From Clostridiales bacterium (lineage in GTDB: Bacteria; Bacillota; Clostridia; Lachnospirales; Lachnospiraceae), in contig JAJQIK010000063.1 in assembly GCA_021199255.1 (NCBI GenBank), forward strand, positions 1 to 64,000: 64,000 bases of DNA, read 5' to 3'. A program made the translations under genes and the position numbers. Positions 19,863-41,740 of the stretch are shown piece by piece (within the stretch, counting starts at the first letter, position 1; the number at the start of each line of letters is the position of its first letter). Below the pieces are notes generated by a model. That model saw nothing but the letters and a program-made list of their open reading frames with translations, did no database searches and was not told where the DNA came from.

Positions 19863-20555
19863 TTAATCTCCATTTCTACATATCATTCCGGCCTCCGCCC
19901 GAAGCCTCTTCATTTCCCGCTCCAGATCCAGCAGGCGATTCGTCAGCTCCGCGTTCGCCCTTTGCAGGCTCATAATATCCTCCCGCACAGGATCCGGCAA
20001 ATCCGTCTGATCCAGCTTCTCCTGAGGCAGCGCCTGATCATTTCGTTTGACCACTCTCCCCGGCACGCCTACCACAGTGGAATTAGGCGGCACCTCCTTC
20101 AACACCACGCTGCCCGCTCCAATCTTGCTGTTATCCCCGATCTTAAAGGAGCCTAATACCTTCGCGCCGGTGCTGATCATCACGTTATTGCCGATGGTGG
20201 GGTGGCGCTTCCCCTGTTCCTTACCGGTACCGCCCAGCGTTACGCCCTGATAGAGCGTTACATTATCCCCGATTACAGAGGTCTCCCCAATAATCACCCC
20301 ATTGCCGTGATCGATGAAAAAGCCCTTGCCAATCTGTGCGCCCGGATGAATCTCGATTCCGGTTTTGCGCACGCCCCTCTGGGAAACCCATCTCGCCAGA
20401 AAGTAGTGACGCTTCCGATACAGCTTATGCGCCAGCCGATAATACATCATCACTTTAAAACTGGGATATAAAAATACCTCCATATTCGAATGAATCGCCG
20501 GATCGCGCTCCCGGATCACCTTGATCTCTTCCCGTATACGGCTGACCAATCCCAT
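19863..20555 (-). CDS. cysE: Serine O-acetyltransferase
   Basis: A 230-residue enzyme making O-acetylserine from serine and acetyl-CoA, the carbon skeleton for cysteine. The N-terminal helices ([15 protein letters not shown]) precede a left-handed beta-helix of hexapeptide repeats (about 85-180): [38 protein letters not shown], and [18 protein letters not shown]. The usual short C-terminal tail follows, then an extra coiled-coil stretch of about 40 residues. ATG 20555 has AGGAGG nine bases upstream; the open frame continues to 20765 only because the T-box leader happens to be open. It leads the cysteine pair with cysS. Confidence 0.94.
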
Positions 20556-20631
20556 ATCCATCCCCCTCCTTCTATGCCCCGCAAAATGAAGCGTATGCCC
20601 TGATCCTGCCGGGACTATGATTTCATCGGAC

Positions 20632-20880
20632 AAAAAAACGGACAATTCTGTCTCTGCTGCATTAGAGACGAAATTATCCGCGGTTCCACTCTGCTTAGAA
20701 GCTGCTGTGAGCCTCTCACTCATGACCTGTAACGGGGTCAGCCGGACAAAGATACCAGGTTCCAAACCGTTCCCTCTGTCAGACTCCGGGGCGCACTTTC
20801 CTTTTCCTCCGTCAGAACCGTTTACAGCCGACGACGGTTCCTCTCTGTCACATCAGTAAAAGGTACTCTTCCCTTTCCTT
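20632..20880 (-). promoter_or_regulatory. T-box riboswitch, probably tRNA-Cys specific
   Basis: The minus strand carries the T-box core AAGCAGAGTGGAACCGCGG (20678-20696) and a terminator: CGGATAATT-CGTCTCT pairs with AGAGAC-AATTGTCCG (within 20639-20680), followed by seven T (20632-20638). Upstream, about 20700-20880, lies a structured Stem I region. A TGC in AAGTGCGCC near 20795 is a candidate Cys specifier. Uncharged tRNA-Cys should bind and stop termination, raising cysE-cysS. Confidence 0.92.
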
Positions 20881-20898
20881 GCCTTGCCTATATGTTAT

Positions 20899-32100: not shown

Positions 32101-32320
32101 AGGCTTTGCCCAGATAGTTGAATTTCACCGCCTGCAGCGCCATATCCGCCGTATCCGCCCGCATTTCCAGAAGATAGCCCACAAAATTGACCAGCATGGT
32201 AATCGTTGTGATCAGCAGACGGTTCTGCTGCTTTGAAGGCTGCTGGTATAAAATATAAAGGGTCTCGCAGAAAAGCATTGCGATACCGATAACCTGAATC
32301 AGTTCCAATAAAACAAACAT
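29120..32320 (-). CDS. Hybrid histidine kinase (7TM, PAS-like, HisKA, HATPase, REC, Hpt)
   Basis: A 1066-residue phosphorelay sensor. Residues 1-215 form seven helices of the 7TM-HK type, 235-325 a PAS-like sensor, 345-415 HisKA with phospho-accepting H358 in SNMSHEIRTPMN, then HATPase_c (NNAIKFT, DTGQGI, GTGLGL). A region at 590-690 may be a degenerate receiver. The REC domain (715-835) has D721-D722 and acceptor D765, and a C-terminal Hpt domain has H929 in EVHALKNTARM. All four phosphorelay sites are thus in one chain. The ATG overlaps the stop of the upstream EAL gene (TAATG), so kinase and phosphodiesterase are coupled; the final target regulator is not adjacent. Confidence 0.92.
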   Translation of the reverse strand: MFVLLELIQVIGIAMLFCETLYILYQQPSKQQNRLLITTITMLVNFVGYLLEMRADTADMALQAVKFNYLGKAFIPLTVLLFIMEYCRIRLPKYLPGALFAIHTGIWVLVLTCEHHQLYYKDIQYVTDGFFPHLVLSHGIFYQLYNGLVGAYLIVMIVVCFRRYLQVRGNEEERMKRGVFLIPVIMFIGFAVFLTGKTQGYDTTMLAYLCASVILARSLYQGKILNTLSMAKELAVDELSDGLMVLSRENQVLYYNKKIEKFFDLKDEGAAGAVIEELDRCILEKQFVERNRRVHEVYSRLLTDGNEYCGKMYVLNDITESHYYAKHAQEQAEIMKALKEQAETANQAKSAFVSNMSHEIRTPMNAIVGMTEILLREDLPAQDRGYLMNIRNSGNALLAIINDILDFSKIESGKMELVEGEYEPMSMLSDLGMMFLTRIGEKNIELLFDIDEKLPQKLYGDPLRIRQIIINIVNNAIKFTEEGYVRLQIRVGSVANEDMELLVSVRDTGQGIREEELGKLFDSFGQVDNRKNYGKEGTGLGLSISKQLVELMGGAIGVRSVYGEGSEFYFNIHQKIRSGEMAAGIHHEELIGKLRISGFFEKECMREALQELTERFGLNYVPCEEWIETREQLDYFFTDIPGYLLLRGEIEQAHGQIGEVYVLRNPLLEENVEIQGTMMNKPLYSLNFCQVINHEQPETGAAAAEDYRFFTAPEASVLIVDDNGMNLKVACGLLEPLQMKIDTADSGKRALQMVQNKKYHLIFMDHMMPVMDGIEATEKIRAMEGDYYRNVPIIALSANAMMDAREQFHKAGMDDFVAKPIEMKEICNCIKKWLPRELIVKQNGGNAQERKPSGSLQEGGAAPAQAEETAQELPTLRGIDSAAGVQACGSQKLWLSLLGDFYKIIDAKSNKLEKCLADHMIRDYTIEVHALKNTARMIGAGQLSEWFRHMEECGNAGDEDTIVKETPELLKEYRSFKEILRPYGEASNQEKREATTEELIGLLTQLKDAMDSFDLDGADEAMQELEQRRIPAGCEAMMDSLRVGVADVMMEDVMNTAEEMIKTLRG

Positions 32321-34425
32321 TACGCATCCTCTTCCATTTTCGCTTCAAATTCGGCAACGGGCATGGGTTTCGCAAAGTAATACCCCTGAATCATATCGCA
32401 GCCCTGGCTTGCCAGAAAGTCTACCTGTTCCTTTTTCTCTACGCCTTCCGCCACCACCCGCATATCCAGGCTTCTGGCCAGTTGAATGGCCTCCCGCACC
32501 ACGATCGCCCCTCGGCCGTCGCCGTCTTCCCCGCGGAAAAACTCGCCGTCCAGCTTCAGCACATCCAGCGGAATATCCTTTAAAGAATTTAAGGAAGAAT
32601 ATCCCGCGCCAAAATCGTCCATGGATACCCGAAAACCATAGGCCTTCAACTGCTTCACCGTTTCCACCAGAATATCCTTGTCGTCAAAGAAAGCGCTCTC
32701 CGTCACTTCCAGCTCGATCAGCTCATGCCTGGGGCCATAGGCGTCCACCAGCCTGCAAATATGCTCCGCCAGCCCCTCCTGGGCAAAGTGGGCTCTGGAA
32801 ATATTGACGGAAACGGGCACCTGTTTCCCGCCCTGAATCGTCCACTGCGCCTGCAGCTTCGCCACACAGGAAATCATGTAATCGTCCAACTGGGTGATAA
32901 AGCCGTTCCGCTCAAAAATAGGAATAAAGCGCCCCGGAGATATGATGCCCTCCTCCGGGTCTACCCAGCGCACAAGCGCCTCCGCGCCCACCATTTTGGC
33001 GTCCGCCGGGCTGTATTTGGGCTGCAGGTATACTTGGAACTCTTCATTGTGAAGCGCCGTTTCCATGGTATCCTCCACCTTCCGCTCCCAGATCTGGTCG
33101 TTTAAAAGCTCCTGATTAAAGAAGCTGATCCGCAGCCCGTCCGTTTCCTTCGCGGAAAGCCGCGCCGCGTTGGCATAATTGTACATCTGGTCGATATCCG
33201 CTTCCTGCCTGACGCAGCAGCGTCTGCGGTCTTCCCGCATTTCAGGATAAATCATATAAATTCCCGCGTGGAAACGAATCTTGCGATCCGGCTTTAACCC
33301 GGTCAGCTCCGCCAACAGCGAGTTGATCCGCTTACGGCAGTATTCCTGCATCTGCACCACGCTCTCTCCCTCGCAGCGCAGCAATAATCCAAAGTCCGCG
33401 CCCTCATGGCGGGCAAAGGCTTCTTCCCTGCCTGTACGCGCTTTCAGGAAGCCGTCCATGCCGCCCAGCAAATCTTCTCCTTCCCTGGTTCCGTAACAGG
33501 CGCAGTAATTCTGATACCGCTCCACATGGAGATTCACCATGGCATAGGTTTTCCTGTTATTTTTGCGCCTGCACAGAATCCGTGCGGCGCGGTTCTGAAA
33601 ATAAAACCAGTTCTTTCCGCCGCTGACCGCGTCCAGATATAATAGCTGCGTTACCCGCCGCTGATTTACGATAGACCGTATGGTATTCACAAACAGGAAG
33701 CAGCAGGGAATCAAGAACAGGACAAAAATACAGGCGGCGAGAATACAGACAAACAGGATATCCTGTCTCTGAATCTGCGCCGAGCATTTGACATACAGCC
33801 GGTATTCCTGATTGTCCAGAGACTCCCGTAACCAGAAACGCTCTTCCAAAATCGTCTCGTTTAACCACTGGGTCGTGGTCTGCTCTTCTGACCCGCGATC
33901 CAAAACGGCGGACAGAATCTCTCCCACAGACAGCGAAAAAACAGCGTCTGAACTTCCCTGCGCCGCTCCGGCGCTTTCACTGTCCGCCAGCACAATCAGT
34001 TCCGCCCCCAGGGCGTTCCCCAGAGAAAAATCTTCGGCTATACTAAAGTCAGGCTGGGAAGCGCCGGTCTGCGCTATTTTGTGGCCGGAGCGGTCCGTCA
34101 CATAAACCTCGCTGCCGTTGGTGAGAAACATTCGTAAATAGTCCACAGCCTCCGCTGCCGTTTTCTGCTCCATGGCCGTATTCATCAATTCGCTTATGTA
34201 GTTGGTCTGCTCCGCCGCCTGGACGACCTTGCCCGCAAACAAGTATAGGGCAAAGATCTGGATAAAAAGTACGATCACCACAAGGCAGCTTACCAGAAAG
34301 CCTGCAAACAGCGCAATGGAAGGCCACATTTTCTTTTTCTGCATCTTGTCAAATTTCCTGGCTTTTTTCCCGTTCATATTTACCCTCATTTCTGCGCTTT
34401 TTCTGCGCATAAAACAATGTTTCAT
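32320..34425 (-). CDS. Membrane EAL-domain c-di-GMP phosphodiesterase with degenerate GGDEF
   Basis: Two transmembrane helices flank a periplasmic-type sensor region (about 25-235). A GGDEF-like domain follows whose signature place reads HEGADFGLLL, so cyclase activity is unlikely. The C-terminal EAL domain keeps the catalytic residues: GAEALVRW, VSVNISRAHF, LELEVTES-type ELEVTESAF, MDDFGAGYSSL, LKLDGEF, VAEGVE and the final QGYYFAKPM. It should hydrolyse cyclic di-GMP. The open frame reaches 34539 but would cross a tRNA gene; ATG 34425 (after AAAGG) or ATG 34377 (after GAGGG) are the real options. It is coupled to the hybrid kinase downstream and is a plausible antagonist of the REC-GGDEF protein at 3.9 kb. 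Confidence 0.88.
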   Translation of the reverse strand: MKHCFMRRKSAEMRVNMNGKKARKFDKMQKKKMWPSIALFAGFLVSCLVVIVLFIQIFALYLFAGKVVQAAEQTNYISELMNTAMEQKTAAEAVDYLRMFLTNGSEVYVTDRSGHKIAQTGASQPDFSIAEDFSLGNALGAELIVLADSESAGAAQGSSDAVFSLSVGEILSAVLDRGSEEQTTTQWLNETILEERFWLRESLDNQEYRLYVKCSAQIQRQDILFVCILAACIFVLFLIPCCFLFVNTIRSIVNQRRVTQLLYLDAVSGGKNWFYFQNRAARILCRRKNNRKTYAMVNLHVERYQNYCACYGTREGEDLLGGMDGFLKARTGREEAFARHEGADFGLLLRCEGESVVQMQEYCRKRINSLLAELTGLKPDRKIRFHAGIYMIYPEMREDRRRCCVRQEADIDQMYNYANAARLSAKETDGLRISFFNQELLNDQIWERKVEDTMETALHNEEFQVYLQPKYSPADAKMVGAEALVRWVDPEEGIISPGRFIPIFERNGFITQLDDYMISCVAKLQAQWTIQGGKQVPVSVNISRAHFAQEGLAEHICRLVDAYGPRHELIELEVTESAFFDDKDILVETVKQLKAYGFRVSMDDFGAGYSSLNSLKDIPLDVLKLDGEFFRGEDGDGRGAIVVREAIQLARSLDMRVVAEGVEKKEQVDFLASQGCDMIQGYYFAKPMPVAEFEAKMEEDA

Positions 34426-34468
34426 CCCGAAGCCTTTACGCTGCTGGGGACTGCCGTTCAAAATGCCA

Positions 34469-34500
34469 AAGCGGAAACGCTGTGGATAACGTTTCCGCTT
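34469..34500 (-). terminator. Hairpin after the tRNA-Val/tRNA-Met transcript
   Basis: AAGCGGAAACG (34469-34479) pairs perfectly with CGTTTCCGCTT (34490-34500), 13 bases past tRNA-Met on the minus strand. The T-run after it is weak, so some read-through into the EAL gene is possible. Confidence 0.6.
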
Positions 34501-34512
34501 ATGAATACAAAA

Positions 34513-34586
34513 TAGCGAGAGAGAGACTTGAACTCTCAACCTCCCGGGTATGAACCGGACGCTCTAGCCAGTTGAGCCATCTCGCC
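34513..34586 (-). tRNA. tRNA-Met (anticodon CAT)
   Basis: Cloverleaf: acceptor GGCGAGA/TCTCGCT (one G-T pair), D-arm GCTC...GAGC, anticodon stem TCCGG/CCGGG with loop TTCATAC, T-arm GAGAG-TTCAAGT-CTCTC. A CAT anticodon may be elongator Met, initiator or lysidine-modified Ile; the paired 1-72 end and the absence of three G-C pairs in the anticodon stem argue against initiator. Confidence 0.9.
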
Positions 34587-34602
34587 ATATTTATGAAACT
34601 GA

Positions 34603-34675
34603 TGGGGCCTATAGGGCTCGAACCTATGACCCTCTGCTTGTAAGGCAGATGCTCTCCCAGCTGAGCTAAGACCCC
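34603..34675 (-). tRNA. tRNA-Val (anticodon TAC)
   Basis: Cloverleaf: acceptor GGGGTCT/AGGCCCC, D-arm GCTCAGCTGGGAGAGC, anticodon stem TCTGC/GCAGA with loop CTTACAA, T-arm ATAGG-TTCGAGC-CCTAT. It is 16 bases upstream of tRNA-Met on the same transcript. CCA is not encoded. Confidence 0.95.
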
Positions 34676-34708
34676 ATATACCGGGTCGCTTTCGCAACCC
34701 GCTTTGCT

Positions 34709-34738
34709 AGTATACAATTTCTTCCTGCTACTTGTCAA
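34709..34738 (-). promoter_or_regulatory. Promoter of the tRNA-Val/tRNA-Met transcript
   Basis: TTGACA (34733-34738) and TATACT (34709-34714) with 18 bases between on the minus strand, ending 33 bases before the tRNA-Val 5' end. Confidence 0.8.
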
Positions 34739-34746
34739 GTCTTTTA

Positions 34747-37170
34747 TTACATTTTTTCAGGGGCGGAGAATCCTAACAAGTCGATGCAGGTCTCCAGAAC
34801 CTCCTTGGTCAGCTTCAGCAGCGCGATCCAGCCCGATTTCCTGTCCTGATCTTCCTCGGACAGAATCTTCGTCTCATGATAGAAGCTGTTAAAGGCATTG
34901 GCAAGATCGTAGATATAGGCGCAGATTTTATGAGGCGCAATCTCCTCAAAGGCTCCCTTCATCATGCCCTGGAAACCGGTCAGCTCCAGCATCAGCGCTT
35001 TTTCCGCTCCATGGGACGCTTCCCGAATGACTATGTCGGTCAATTTGCCGCCCTGCTCCTCATATTTATTCAGAATCGATTTAATCCGCACGATCGTGTA
35101 CAGGATATAGGGGCCGGTATCCCCCTCAAAGGAAGTAAAGCGATCCATATCGAAAATATAATCCTTGGACGCCTGATTGGACAGATCGCCGTACTTGATC
35201 GCGGCCAGACCCACAATCCTCGCCGTTTCTTCCTCTGTAGCCGCGTCCATCTGATAGCCCTTGGTTTTTCCATTCTCATGAATCTTGCAAAGCATCTCCT
35301 CGTTAATCTCACGGATCAGGTTTTCCAGACGCATCACGCCGCCTTCCCTGGTCTTAAAGGGCTTGCCGTCCTTGCCGTTCATGGTGCCGAAGCCGATATG
35401 CACCAGCTCGGTTTCCTCCTTCACCAATCCGGTCTTGCGGGCGCAGCGGAACACCTGCTCGAAATACAGATCCTGGCGCTTGTCGGTCAGATAGATCAGC
35501 TTATCCGGGTGATAGGTTTCCATACGATCCTGAATCGTGGCCAGGTCTGTGGTGTTATACAGGGAAGCGCCGTCGGATTTGAGAATCATACAGGGCGGGA
35601 TTTCCTTCGTGTCCGTCTCTTCCCTGACGTCTACCACCCAGGCTCCTTCGCTCTCATAGGCATAGCCCTCCCGCTTCATCTGCTCCACCATGGCGGGTAT
35701 TCTGTCGTGCACGTCGGACTCGCCCTTCCAGAGATCAAACTCCACGTTCAGGTTTTCGTAATTTTTCTTTAAATCGGATACCGATACCGCAATAATATGA
35801 TTCCAGAGCGCCCGGTATCCTCTGACGCCGTTTTGCAGCTTATAGGTGGCTTCCATGGCAGCCGCCTTATAGGCCTCGTCCTCCTTGGATTTGGCGCTGG
35901 CGGCAGGATAGATTTCTTCCAGCTCTGAAATCGTAAAGGGCGCCTGCGCCGGATAGTCCCCCTGATAGTGATCGTCAAAATAAACCAGCTCCGGCTGCCG
36001 CAGCTTAAGCTCTGTGATAATCAGCCCCATCTGCAGCCCCCAGTCTCCCAGATGAATATCTCCGATCACATCATGCCCCGCGTAACGGCAGATCCTCTTG
36101 ATGCTCTCGCCGATAATAGCGGAACGCAGATGCCCCACATGAAGCGGCTTCGCCACATTAGGGCCGCCATAATCAATTATAATCCTCTGGGGCTTCCCCT
36201 GTACTGTCAGCCCAAACTTATCTGCCGCCGCCATCCGGTTCAGATAGTCGGCGATTACGTCCTCTCTGACCTTGAGATTCAGGAAGCCGGGGGCAGCCGC
36301 AGTCACCTCCGACAACACGGAGCTCTCCTGCAGCCGTTTTGCCACTTCGCCGGCAATCATCATCGGCGCCTTGTGGTACTGCTTCGCCCCAGCCATCGCG
36401 CCATTGCACTGAAATTCGCACAGGTCTGGCCTGTTGGACAGCGTAACCCTGCCCAGCTCCCCGGCATAACCGGCGGCCTCAAACGCCGCTTTCATTTCTT
36501 CTGAGATGATCTCTAAAAATTCCTTCATTTTTCCTCCATTCCGCTCCTGTCTGGAATAGATACAGCCGCAGTAGTCCTGCCTGTACAATCCATATTCTTT
36601 GGATAACTCCACAGACCGCTGATAGCCGCCCTTTTTCTTGAAATCAGAAGGAAGCCACCGCACCTGATATTCCTCCGCCAGCCGCTCCCCTATTTCATTT
36701 AATTTGCCCGCGTTCTTCAAAGGGCTGATGGTCAGAGTCGTGGTAAAAAAGTCAAAGCCCTCCGCCTTAGCAAGCTTAGCCGTCCTGCGAAGCCGCAGGT
36801 CATAGCAGGCAAAGCATCTGACGCCCCCCTCCGGGCACTGTTCCATGCCCTGCGCCATGGCCAGGAACTTCTCCGGTTCATAATCCCCCTCCACGATCTC
36901 AATCGGATAACCCGTCCCGCCGGACAGAATCTCATCGTTATAGGCCGCAATCAGTCTTTTCTGTTCCCCAGCCCGCCTGCGGTATTCCGGCTCCATAGAA
37001 ATATTGGGATTATAATAAAAAACCGTGATTCTGAAAAACCTCCGCAGATATTCCAAAACATAGCTGCTGCAGGGTGCGCAGCAGCTATGCAGGAGAAGGG
37101 TTTTCCCTACGGTTCCCGGTTGCTCCAATAATTTATCCAGTTCCTTCTGATAATTTCTGTTCTGATTCAT
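34747..37170 (-). CDS. argS: QueH epoxyqueuosine reductase fused to arginyl-tRNA synthetase
   Basis: One 807-residue open frame holds two full enzymes. Residues 1-210 are QueH, which makes queuosine from epoxyqueuosine in tRNA: C30-C31 and C34 (HSCCAPC), C119/C122 (RCFAC) and C201/C203 (YCGC) are all present. Residues 215-807 are ArgS: N-terminal Add domain, PNVAKPLHVGHLRS with HVGH at 344-347, FKTREGG in the KMSKS place and the C-terminal anticodon domain. The four linker residues N-G-G-K are the translation of GGAGGA (36532-36537), a Shine-Dalgarno site four bases before the ArgS ATG at 36528. So either a fusion or both a fusion and free ArgS are made. No stop separates the two parts. Confidence 0.92.
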   Translation of the reverse strand: MNQNRNYQKELDKLLEQPGTVGKTLLLHSCCAPCSSYVLEYLRRFFRITVFYYNPNISMEPEYRRRAGEQKRLIAAYNDEILSGGTGYPIEIVEGDYEPEKFLAMAQGMEQCPEGGVRCFACYDLRLRRTAKLAKAEGFDFFTTTLTISPLKNAGKLNEIGERLAEEYQVRWLPSDFKKKGGYQRSVELSKEYGLYRQDYCGCIYSRQERNGGKMKEFLEIISEEMKAAFEAAGYAGELGRVTLSNRPDLCEFQCNGAMAGAKQYHKAPMMIAGEVAKRLQESSVLSEVTAAAPGFLNLKVREDVIADYLNRMAAADKFGLTVQGKPQRIIIDYGGPNVAKPLHVGHLRSAIIGESIKRICRYAGHDVIGDIHLGDWGLQMGLIITELKLRQPELVYFDDHYQGDYPAQAPFTISELEEIYPAASAKSKEDEAYKAAAMEATYKLQNGVRGYRALWNHIIAVSVSDLKKNYENLNVEFDLWKGESDVHDRIPAMVEQMKREGYAYESEGAWVVDVREETDTKEIPPCMILKSDGASLYNTTDLATIQDRMETYHPDKLIYLTDKRQDLYFEQVFRCARKTGLVKEETELVHIGFGTMNGKDGKPFKTREGGVMRLENLIREINEEMLCKIHENGKTKGYQMDAATEEETARIVGLAAIKYGDLSNQASKDYIFDMDRFTSFEGDTGPYILYTIVRIKSILNKYEEQGGKLTDIVIREASHGAEKALMLELTGFQGMMKGAFEEIAPHKICAYIYDLANAFNSFYHETKILSEEDQDRKSGWIALLKLTKEVLETCIDLLGFSAPEKM

Positions 37171-37207: not shown

Positions 37208-40200
37208 CTATCTGCCCCTCTGGGCGATCGTGGCAATATCCACCAGCGTCAGCTCTCCCTGAGAAGCCGCGTTTTCCAGGCTTGTAACCAGCGCCGCCGC
37301 CGTGTCCATAGCCGTGATACAGTTGACGCCTGTCTCGATGGCGGTTCTCCTGATTAAAAAGCCGTCCCGGCTCTTGTCCCGTCCCTGGGTCGGCGTATCG
37401 ATCACCAGATCGATTTTGTGCCCCAGAATCAAATCCATAACCGTAGGGGATTCCTGCTGTATCTTATTAACCTTCCTTGCCTTCACGCCCGCTTCATTCA
37501 ACGCCGCCGCCGTACTTCTGGTAGCATAAATCGTATAACCCAGCTTCTCGAAACGCCGCGCCACGTCGATGGCCTCTCCCTTATCCGCGTCCTTGACCGT
37601 AATAATCATCTGCTTATGCCTGGGCAGATTTACGCCCGCGCCCAAAAAGGCTTTGTACAACGCCTCGTTGAAGGTTCTGGCAATCCCCAGACATTCGCCG
37701 GTAGACTTCATTTCCGGCCCCAAGCTGATCTCCGCCCCACGGATTTTCTCAAAGGAGAATACCGGCATCTTAATGGCGAAATAATCCGCCGCCGGCTGCA
37801 GCCCCGGCTCATAGCCAAGCTCCCGAATCTTTTTGCCGATAATAACCTGCGTGGCCAGATCGACGATGGGAATCCCCGTCACTTTGCTGATATAAGGCAC
37901 GGTACGGGAGGAACGGGGGTTCACCTCGATTACATACACCTCGTCGCCCACCGCAATAAACTGAATATTAATCAATCCGATGACGTGCAGCGCCTTGGCC
38001 AGTCTTCTGGAATATTCCGCAATGGTTTCCTTGACCTTCTCGCTGACCGTGGGAGCAGGATAGACGGAAATGCTGTCGCCGGAATGGACGCCCGTCCGCT
38101 CAATATGCTCCATAATACCCGGAATCAGAATATCCGTGCCGTCGCATACCGCGTCTACCTCCAGCTCCTTGCCCTGTAAATATTTATCCACCAGAATCGG
38201 ATGTTCCTGCTCATAGCGGTTAATCACCGCCATAAATTCTTCGATTTCCTGATCGGAGATGGCGATCTGCATTCCCTGCCCGCCCAGCACATAAGAGGGA
38301 CGAACCAGCACCGGATAGCCCAGCCTGTTGGCCACCGCCTTGGCCTCCTCAGCCGTATAAACCGTACCGCCCGCCGCTCTGGGGATCTCTGTCTCCTCCA
38401 GAATCTTATCGAACAGCTCCCTGTCCTCCGCGGCGTCTACGTCCTCCGCTTTGGTGCCCAGAATAGGCACGCCCATCTTCATCAGGCTCTCTGTCAGCTT
38501 GATGGCGGTCTGGCCGCCAAACTGCACTACCGCTCCGTCCGGCTTCTCCACATTCACGATATTCTCCACATCTTCCGGCGTCAGAGGCTCGAAATACAGC
38601 TTATCCGCAATATCAAAGTCCGTGCTGACCGTCTCCGGGTTATTATTGACGATAATCGTCTCATAACCCTCCCGCGCAAACGCCCATGTGGCGTGGACGG
38701 AGCAATAATCAAACTCGATTCCCTGTCCGATACGGATAGGGCCGGAACCAAGCACCAACACCTTTTTCCGGGAATGGGCAGGCTCCACTTCTGTCTCGGA
38801 GCCGAACACTGAGTAGTAATATGGCGTGCTTGCCGCAAATTCCGCCGCGCAGGTATCCACCATCTTAAACGCCGCCACAATCCCGTTATCATAACGCATT
38901 TTCCTGATTTCCGCTTCCGTCCTTCCCGTCAGGCCGGCAATCACATGATCCGGGAACTCAAGCCGCTTCGCTTCTTTTAACAGCTCCAGCGTCAGCGGGC
39001 CTTTCTCCAGCGCCGCCTCCATCTCTGTTAAAATAGCGATTTTATCAATAAACCAGCAGTCTACCATGGTGATTTCATGTATGGTGTCATAATCGACGCC
39101 TTTTCGGATCGCCTCCGCAATAATGTAAATCCTCTGGTCGTCTACGATTTTCAGCCTGTCAATCAATTCTTCCTTCGTCATCTGGGAGAAATCATAGCTT
39201 CTCAGGCAGTCCACATGCTGTTCCAGGGAACGGATCGCTTTCATCAGGGCGCCTTCAAAATTATTGCCGATACTCATCACTTCCCCGGTGGCCTTCATCT
39301 GCGTTGTGAGAGTACGTTTCGCCGTAATAAATTTATCAAAAGGCAGTCTGGGAATCTTCACCACGCAATAATCCAGGGCAGGCTCAAAGCTGGCGTAGGT
39401 TTTGCCGGTAATGGCATTTTTAATCTCGTCCAGGGTATATCCCAGCGCGATCTTGGCCGCCACCTTGGCAATCGGATATCCCGTGGCCTTGGAGGCCAGC
39501 GCCGAGGAACGGCTCACACGGGGATTTACCTCGATCACACAGTATTCAAAGCTGGTAGGGTGCAGGGCAAACTGTACGTTACACCCGCCTGTGATGCCCA
39601 GCTCGTTAATAATATTCAAAGCGGAGCTTCTGAGCATCTGGTATTCCTTGTCCCCCAGCGTCTGGGAGGGCGCCACTACGATACTGTCGCCGGTATGAAC
39701 CCCTACCGGATCAATGTTTTCCATATTACATACGGTGATGCAGTTTCCCGCGCTGTCGCGCATGACCTCATATTCGATTTCCTTCCAGCCGGCGATACAG
39801 CGCTCTACCAGAACCTGTCCCACACGGGAAAGGCGCAGGCCGTTTGCCAGTATTTCCTCCAGCTCGATCTGGTTATGGGCGATGCCGCCGCCGGAACCGC
39901 CAAGGGTATACGCGGGACGCAGCACCACCGGATAACCGATCTTATTGGCAAAGGCGATCCCGTCCTCAATATTCTCTACCACAAGAGAGGGCGCGCAGGG
40001 CTCTCCGATCTTCTCCATGGTCTCCTTAAATTCCAGACGGTCCTCCGCCTTTTTAATGGTCTGCGCCGTAGTGCCAAGCAGGGCGACCCCATGGGCTGCG
40101 AGGAAACCGGATTCGTCCAGCTCCATTCCCAGATTCAGCCCTGCCTGTCCGCCCATGTTGGGCAGAAGGCTGTCCGGCTTTTCCTTGATAATAATCTGTT

Positions 40201-40423
40201 CCAGCACCTTCGCTGTCAAAGGCTCAATATATACTTTATCCGCAATATCGCCGTCGGTCATGATCGTTGCGGGATTGGAATTGACCAGAATAACTTCCAT
40301 GCCCTCTTCCTTCAGGGAACGGCATGCCTGCGTACCTGCATAATCAAACTCCGCCGCCTGCCCGATCACAATCGGGCCGGAGCCGATCACCAGCACTCTT
40401 TTTACATTCGGATTCTTAGGCAT
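37208..40423 (-). CDS. carB: Carbamoyl-phosphate synthase large subunit
   Basis: A 1071-residue synthetase that uses ammonia from CarA, bicarbonate and two ATP to make carbamoyl phosphate for pyrimidines and arginine. Both ATP-grasp halves are visible: the first starts KRVLVIGSGPIVIGQAAEFD and has VLRPAYTLGGSGGGIAHN; the second KVLVLGSGPIRIGQGIEFD and VRPSYVLGGQGMQIA. An oligomerisation domain lies between, and the C-terminal MGS-like domain (about 935-1071) holds the regulatory site. Length is that of the family. It starts 39 bases after carA in the same transcript. Confidence 0.97.
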   Translation of the reverse strand: MPKNPNVKRVLVIGSGPIVIGQAAEFDYAGTQACRSLKEEGMEVILVNSNPATIMTDGDIADKVYIEPLTAKVLEQIIIKEKPDSLLPNMGGQAGLNLGMELDESGFLAAHGVALLGTTAQTIKKAEDRLEFKETMEKIGEPCAPSLVVENIEDGIAFANKIGYPVVLRPAYTLGGSGGGIAHNQIELEEILANGLRLSRVGQVLVERCIAGWKEIEYEVMRDSAGNCITVCNMENIDPVGVHTGDSIVVAPSQTLGDKEYQMLRSSALNIINELGITGGCNVQFALHPTSFEYCVIEVNPRVSRSSALASKATGYPIAKVAAKIALGYTLDEIKNAITGKTYASFEPALDYCVVKIPRLPFDKFITAKRTLTTQMKATGEVMSIGNNFEGALMKAIRSLEQHVDCLRSYDFSQMTKEELIDRLKIVDDQRIYIIAEAIRKGVDYDTIHEITMVDCWFIDKIAILTEMEAALEKGPLTLELLKEAKRLEFPDHVIAGLTGRTEAEIRKMRYDNGIVAAFKMVDTCAAEFAASTPYYYSVFGSETEVEPAHSRKKVLVLGSGPIRIGQGIEFDYCSVHATWAFAREGYETIIVNNNPETVSTDFDIADKLYFEPLTPEDVENIVNVEKPDGAVVQFGGQTAIKLTESLMKMGVPILGTKAEDVDAAEDRELFDKILEETEIPRAAGGTVYTAEEAKAVANRLGYPVLVRPSYVLGGQGMQIAISDQEIEEFMAVINRYEQEHPILVDKYLQGKELEVDAVCDGTDILIPGIMEHIERTGVHSGDSISVYPAPTVSEKVKETIAEYSRRLAKALHVIGLINIQFIAVGDEVYVIEVNPRSSRTVPYISKVTGIPIVDLATQVIIGKKIRELGYEPGLQPAADYFAIKMPVFSFEKIRGAEISLGPEMKSTGECLGIARTFNEALYKAFLGAGVNLPRHKQMIITVKDADKGEAIDVARRFEKLGYTIYATRSTAAALNEAGVKARKVNKIQQESPTVMDLILGHKIDLVIDTPTQGRDKSRDGFLIRRTAIETGVNCITAMDTAAALVTSLENAASQGELTLVDIATIAQRGR

Positions 40424-40462: not shown

Positions 40463-41665
<1,203 letters not shown>

Positions 41666-41711: not shown

Positions 41712-41740
41712 ATTATAGCATAAGACCTTAGCCGGTTCAA
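41712..41740 (-). promoter_or_regulatory. Promoter of carA-carB
   Basis: TTGAAC (41735-41740) and TATAAT (41712-41717) with 17 bases between on the minus strand, just before carA. Confidence 0.75.

Follow-up and report, generated by a model that had tools for sequence, protein, structure and literature searches.

Within the window, the whole stretch of 64,000 nucleotides that we analyzed, a single reading frame of 807 codons on the reverse strand (34747..37170) joins a complete queH to a complete argS. Two complete genes sharing one frame is not a matter of chance; the frame is a join of genes that are same-strand neighbors across most of the genus. We consider it likely that this is a lineage-private, end-to-end fusion which arose by spacer loss, and that the sole ArgS is made as QueH-ArgS, with both halves at their usual jobs and a near-neutral link between them.

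The fused frame and its two halves

The list of open reading frames showed no internal stop codon over the 807 codons of 34747-37170, and the product has a computed mass of 91.5 kDa, versus 66.8 kDa for the 593-residue ArgS that would begin at an internal ATG. Pfam placed QueH at residues 25-209 of the 807-residue product, Arg_tRNA_synt_N at 220-300, the class I (R) catalytic domain at 324-674 and DALR at 689-807. The sequence-only reading of this DNA had described one frame uniting a complete QueH with a complete ArgS, and the frame list, Pfam and NCBIfam confirm that description for both halves.

The QueH half (residues 1-210; 36541..37170, reverse strand) was delimited by its match to PF02677, by alignment to a solved QueH and by cysteine conservation. 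It scored 236.8 bits against PF02677, where the cut-off is 23.5, and matched profile positions 1-175 of 175. Alignment to the solved QueH 7lc5 (E 2.5e-30) lined up the CCAP, RCxxC and CGC motifs, and cysteines 30, 31, 34, 112, 119, 122, 201 and 203 were invariant in 71 usable genus sequences, 2 of the 73 having been dropped for gaps or stops. We take the conserved cysteines to be the metal and cluster ligands. The upstream enzymes of the queuosine pathway, TGT and QueA, were present in the assembly, and the DUF1730 domain of QueG was not found there by a search that was positive in 7 of 14 control genomes. By its sequence this half is a member of the QueH family, with predicted epoxyqueuosine reductase activity. 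Among the other QueH sequences that we encountered, that of a Lachnospiraceae MAG (L105:3989-4708) carries an insertion of about 30 residues ahead of the WLPSDF motif.

The ArgS half, 593 residues and 66.8 kDa when counted from the internal ATG (34747..36528, reverse strand), was delimited by TIGR00456 and by aligned starts. The NCBIfam argS model TIGR00456 gave 437.9 bits against a cut-off of 261.65 and matched at positions 4-569 of 569, over residues 221-807. The HVGH motif, a HIGH-type signature, was invariant in 72 usable genus sequences (1 of 73 dropped), and in 72 of 72 relatives an argS ATG stood at, or adjoining, the aligned start. This half is an ArgS family member with all domains, and a predicted arginyl-tRNA synthetase.

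The source assembly is 99.28% complete in 93 contigs and holds one ArgS and one QueH, so the fused frame encodes the only copies found of two enzymes, one of them essential and the other a last-step enzyme of queuosine synthesis. In trees, our genome formed a clade with G023 and G024 (local support 0.95 for QueH, 0.96 for ArgS and 1.0 for the joined proteins). Compared with these two closest species, queH gave dN of 0.116-0.129 and dS of 1.24-1.43, and argS gave dN of 0.076-0.080 and dS of 1.57-1.82; for both halves dN/dS also takes in the period that preceded the fusion, and dS approaches saturation. Judged by the invariant motifs and the low dN, both halves look functional.

queH and argS in related genomes

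We searched the genus and obtained matches in 75 of 77 genomes, our own included, and retrieved the loci of the 74 other matching genomes. In 72 of the 76 other genus genomes queH and argS lay on one strand of one contig, no more than about 5.5 kb apart; G028 and G053 had no queH at the retrieved argS locus. Junctions were read where the gap between the genes was below 300 nt, and wider gaps were judged by stop distance. In all 72 relatives queH ended at its own stop; 70 had this stop before argS, and in G064 (8 nt) and G068 (an ATGA start/stop overlap) queH overlapped the argS start out of frame. Of the 73 genus genomes that have the two genes on a single contig, our own was the only one to show the fusion.

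These same stops led us to reject a widespread fusion with long linkers, a candidate raised by open frames of about 850-1100 residues in many relatives. The sequence-only reading had counted separate queH and argS genes with stop codons in close relatives against a fusion. Such genes are indeed what the 72 relatives carry, but they show the fusion to be private, not false.

Several individual loci deserve mention. In G067 (L095) and G073 (L101), queH and argS share one frame with a single stop between them, TGA in the former and TAA in the latter, and a single TGA likewise separates them in G451 (L111), according to its family-sample match. At three other loci (L060 of G029, L039 of G008 and L038 of G007) the genes are on the same strand and 2.5-5.4 kb apart. 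A contig scan for further loci, which may omit records of this genome or of very close ones, gave three loci, all from other species; one (L105) has queH and argS as separate frames, and near argS in the other two (L106 and L107) no queH frame of at least 190 residues was listed.

Wider samples gave a similar picture. No other fusion appeared among the matches listed for a family sample of 396 genomes, our own included (down to about 865 bits), and the four other query-spanning matches among those listed contain stops. In a class sample of 243 genomes, again with our own, ours was the one full-span match among those listed; a divergent fusion could be hidden in both of these samples, where the evidence is that of the matches listed. 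A phylum sample of 149 genomes including our own, 65 of them with a QueH match, showed no other fusion among the rows shown, and its next longest QueH open frame was 340 residues, versus 817 residues from stop to stop here. A conserved multi-domain fusion family would extend to more than one species, and what we found was one fused genome in the genus with no other among the family, class and phylum matches listed. On these sequence comparisons the QueH-ArgS fusion looks like a private accident of one lineage.

Spacer, junction and operon setting

In the two closest species a spacer separates queH from argS, of 213 nt in G023 and 99 nt in G024 (up to the codon preceding the ATG). Some 50 bases ahead of argS these spacers carry TTGAGT-17-TATAAT, a promoter-like site matched by 0.005 of 200 single-base shuffles; promoter sites here and below are consensus matches, and the matrix used for the spacers was entered by hand. 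Neither the spacer nor a comparable site is present in the fused gene, where the best promoter-like site in the 250 nt before argS was matched by 0.27 of 300 shuffles. An internal promoter in queH was rejected as well, the best site in its last 250 nt being no better than shuffles. A 10-of-12 promoter-like site lies at 37037-37009, in the 5' part of queH, and such sites in the region are within shuffle counts. Across the genus, 24 of 46 spacers of 40-700 nt had a site that no more than 0.02 of shuffles matched and 22 had none, at a threshold picked after seeing the table and among relatives that share ancestry, so that the 24 are not independent cases. The remaining 26 relatives were unscored, 12 of them with spacers above 700 nt and 14 with spacers below 40 nt; short spacers are thus recurrent in the genus (14 of 72 relatives, two overlaps included).

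Measured between the last conserved stretch of queH and the argS ATG, the fused gene is 117 bases shorter than its counterpart in G024. When the stretch was fitted to G024 with a single breakpoint, the top solution set the deletion's right edge at the ATG itself, with 31 of 37 bases matching as queH tail; taking the last 14 bases as argS leader instead gave 30 of 37 matches by hand count. Those 14 bases matched the argS leader of G023 at 10 positions and that of G024 at 8; against the G024 queH tail, a hand count gave 9 matches. Because these fits are nearly equal, the right edge cannot be placed. We likewise dropped the idea that the linker is an intact argS leader carried over, since the same bases fit a queH tail about equally, and what we claim for the linker is its present Shine-Dalgarno character, as read from the bases. 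In the 72 relatives the QueH alignment ends at query residue 206-209 and the queH stop follows 0 to 24 codons later, which places the join in a tail that varies among them. The queH frame reaches the argS start in 3 of 73 genomes, our own included, and one of the three being in frame equals the chance expectation; the in-frame state of the join is about what chance gives.

A run of five A's at the junction sets the frame. Four A's would give a 214-residue QueH with an ATGA overlap, and six a 230-residue frame. As sequenced, no queH stop overlaps the argS start; one A fewer would create such an overlap. The fusion could accordingly be the product of a base-level error, or of a within-strain variant, with a true A4 version in which queH ends NGGK-TGA and two separate proteins are translationally coupled through ATGA. 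Five-A runs are rarely miscounted in short-read assemblies, which would count against an error if this is one of them, and the frame list of the window, inspected by eye and not against homologues, contains no obvious frameshifted gene. Nor is an error needed to account for one in-frame case among three queH frames that reach argS. On the other side, the A4 version would yield a QueH ending in NGGK with a tail length within the range of the relatives, G068 has just such an ATGA overlap, and four-base gene overlaps are described as frequent in bacteria (PMC6728339, PMC10666635). We give the A4 version a small though real chance. That the junction sequence is right to the base is very probable, in our judgement, which is not a computation.

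Upstream of queH, on the same strand, lie a carB-like gene (37208..40423), 37 nt away, and a carA-like gene (40463..41665), 39 nt upstream of carB; both were placed by frame and spacing, and we take them to be carB and carA from their sequence. A relative of the last 300 residues of carB was found within 600 nt upstream of queH at 53 of 73 genus loci, our own included, 69 of the 73 having room to show it. Upstream of carA, a consensus scan identified TTGAAC-17-TATAAT with a TG before the second hexamer (41712..41740, reverse strand). As the main operon promoter this site is a candidate and a guess, the region having 10 promoter-like sites where shuffles had 7.2 (sd 2.6), which is no excess over chance. 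We infer that carAB-queH-argS forms one transcript. An Rfam search of the window found no leader RNA at the queH-argS gene; elsewhere it placed a T-box leader (RF00230, 101.7 bits) at 20661-20888 on the reverse strand, adjoining a frame at 19863-20765.

Downstream of argS, ARAGORN and Rfam identified tRNA-Met and tRNA-Val (34512..34676, reverse strand). A promoter-like TTGACA-18-TATACT with 11 of 12 matches lies between argS and tRNA-Val (34709-34738, reverse strand) and perhaps serves both tRNAs. The next frame on that strand (32320-34539), presumably encoding a diguanylate-cyclase/phosphodiesterase-like protein, opens at a TTG inside tRNA-Met (34512-34587), and its true start is probably further in.

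The account that we favor would begin with an ancestor in which queH and argS were neighbors, separated by a spacer that held the stop of queH and a promoter belonging to argS. The loss of both by deletion, presumably a single step in that direction, would have left the two frames in phase with no stop between them, joined a few codons past the last conserved QueH cysteine pair, and the gene would now be transcribed within the carAB-queH-argS transcript. Presence of the fusion in 1 of 73 genus genomes is as spacer loss would leave it.

Translation of ArgS and comparison with known systems

The linker is made of the codons AAT GGA GGA AAA (36529..36540, reverse strand), which encode N-G-G-K at residues 211-214. 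Within it, GGAGG at 36537-36533 stands four bases from the argS ATG at 36528-36526, and the sequence-only reading was correct that the linker is spelt by the Shine-Dalgarno site of that internal ATG. Predicted pairing with 16S rRNA at the internal argS start was -9.3 kcal/mol, versus a median of -4.9 in the 72 relatives, 11 of which had pairing as strong. Across the window's long frames, predicted pairing at least this strong was found at 19 of 507 internal in-frame ATGs, the argS ATG included, and at 9 of 36 frame starts. As ribosome sites go, the internal one is good without being out of the ordinary. The opening cost at this start was 8.9 kcal/mol, versus a median of 4.1 in the relatives, and was equal or lower than here in 70 of 72 of them, so the internal site is more folded than that of nearly all relatives.

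Under the spacer-loss account, ribosomes that start at queH would make a bifunctional QueH-ArgS containing the only ArgS and the only epoxyqueuosine reductase found in the assembly, and some ribosomes probably start at the internal ATG and would release free ArgS. It is plausible that one gene yields both the fusion and free ArgS, and some free ArgS from the internal start is likely. The QueH and ArgS halves would each keep their usual job, joined by a link that is structural and close to neutral.

The gene might also be fused on paper only, with internal initiation making nearly all of the ArgS and the fusion being minor or degraded. The closeness of GGAGG to an ATG that has its aligned counterpart in the argS of all 72 relatives is in keeping with this, but with no stop in the way, ribosomes finishing QueH should continue into ArgS, and the high opening cost of the internal site also argues against dominant initiation there. 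We regard it as improbable.

A further possibility is that the join has been selected, that is, kept because it ties the dose or location of QueH to ArgS, while the internal start provides the free form of ArgS. The strong pairing at the internal start, the intact state of both halves and the presence of queH and argS close together on one strand in 72 of 76 other genus members are all consistent with a selected two-product gene. Against it, the fusion occurs in one genome only, no second fused species displays a conserved linker, and ribosome sites as strong stand at 19 of 507 internal ATGs. Queuosine occurs in the tRNAs of Asn, Asp, His and Tyr; the substrate of ArgS is tRNA-Arg. Since QueH and ArgS act on different tRNAs, and the queuosine tRNAs are not ArgS substrates, there is no common substrate that would argue for coupling. 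The sequence-only reading proposed that queuosine maturation and arginine charging are functionally tied; this is not supported, given a fusion confined to a single genus genome, and we find selection for two products very improbable.

The regulatory version of the same idea can be extended to the whole operon. The products of carAB make carbamoyl phosphate, a precursor for arginine and pyrimidine, and a bifunctional QueH-ArgS fixed in this one lineage under the carAB promoter, made as a 91-kDa fusion and a free 67-kDa ArgS, might allow one transcript and an internal start to set queuosine maturation, arginine charging and arginine supply together. The good internal ribosome site is the one positive point in favor of regulated production of two proteins, and we give this extension very little credence.

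If the base calls are right, an essential synthetase found once in its assembly has survived the loss of both the promoter in the spacer and a free N-terminus, and the gene displays a step from operon neighbors to one gene, with unfused sister species available for comparison. The QueH-ArgS fusion opens no new kind of biology. At the level of sequence it combines two well-known families, and among the papers listed by our literature searches no title or opening of an abstract concerned such a fusion.

The QueH half resembles the QueH family (PF02677, 7lc5) in its full-length match and its CCAP, RCxxC and CGC cysteine motifs, and differs in having ArgS attached at the C-terminus. Similarly, the ArgS half has all of the domains, the HVGH motif and the complete N-terminus of ArgS (TIGR00456; solved structures 6ao8, 5yym and 4oby), whereas here it starts inside a longer frame and no promoter-like site was seen just upstream. 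With ATGA-overlapping coupled pairs, of which G068 is an example, the gene shares a tight junction and a downstream Shine-Dalgarno sequence inside the upstream gene; unlike them, it has no stop as sequenced, and the downstream gene is in the same frame. Fusions of operon neighbors are known, for example in histidine biosynthesis operons, and the present fusion is like them in that adjacent genes are joined head to tail, but its partners act on different tRNAs and not in one pathway, and it occurs in one genome.
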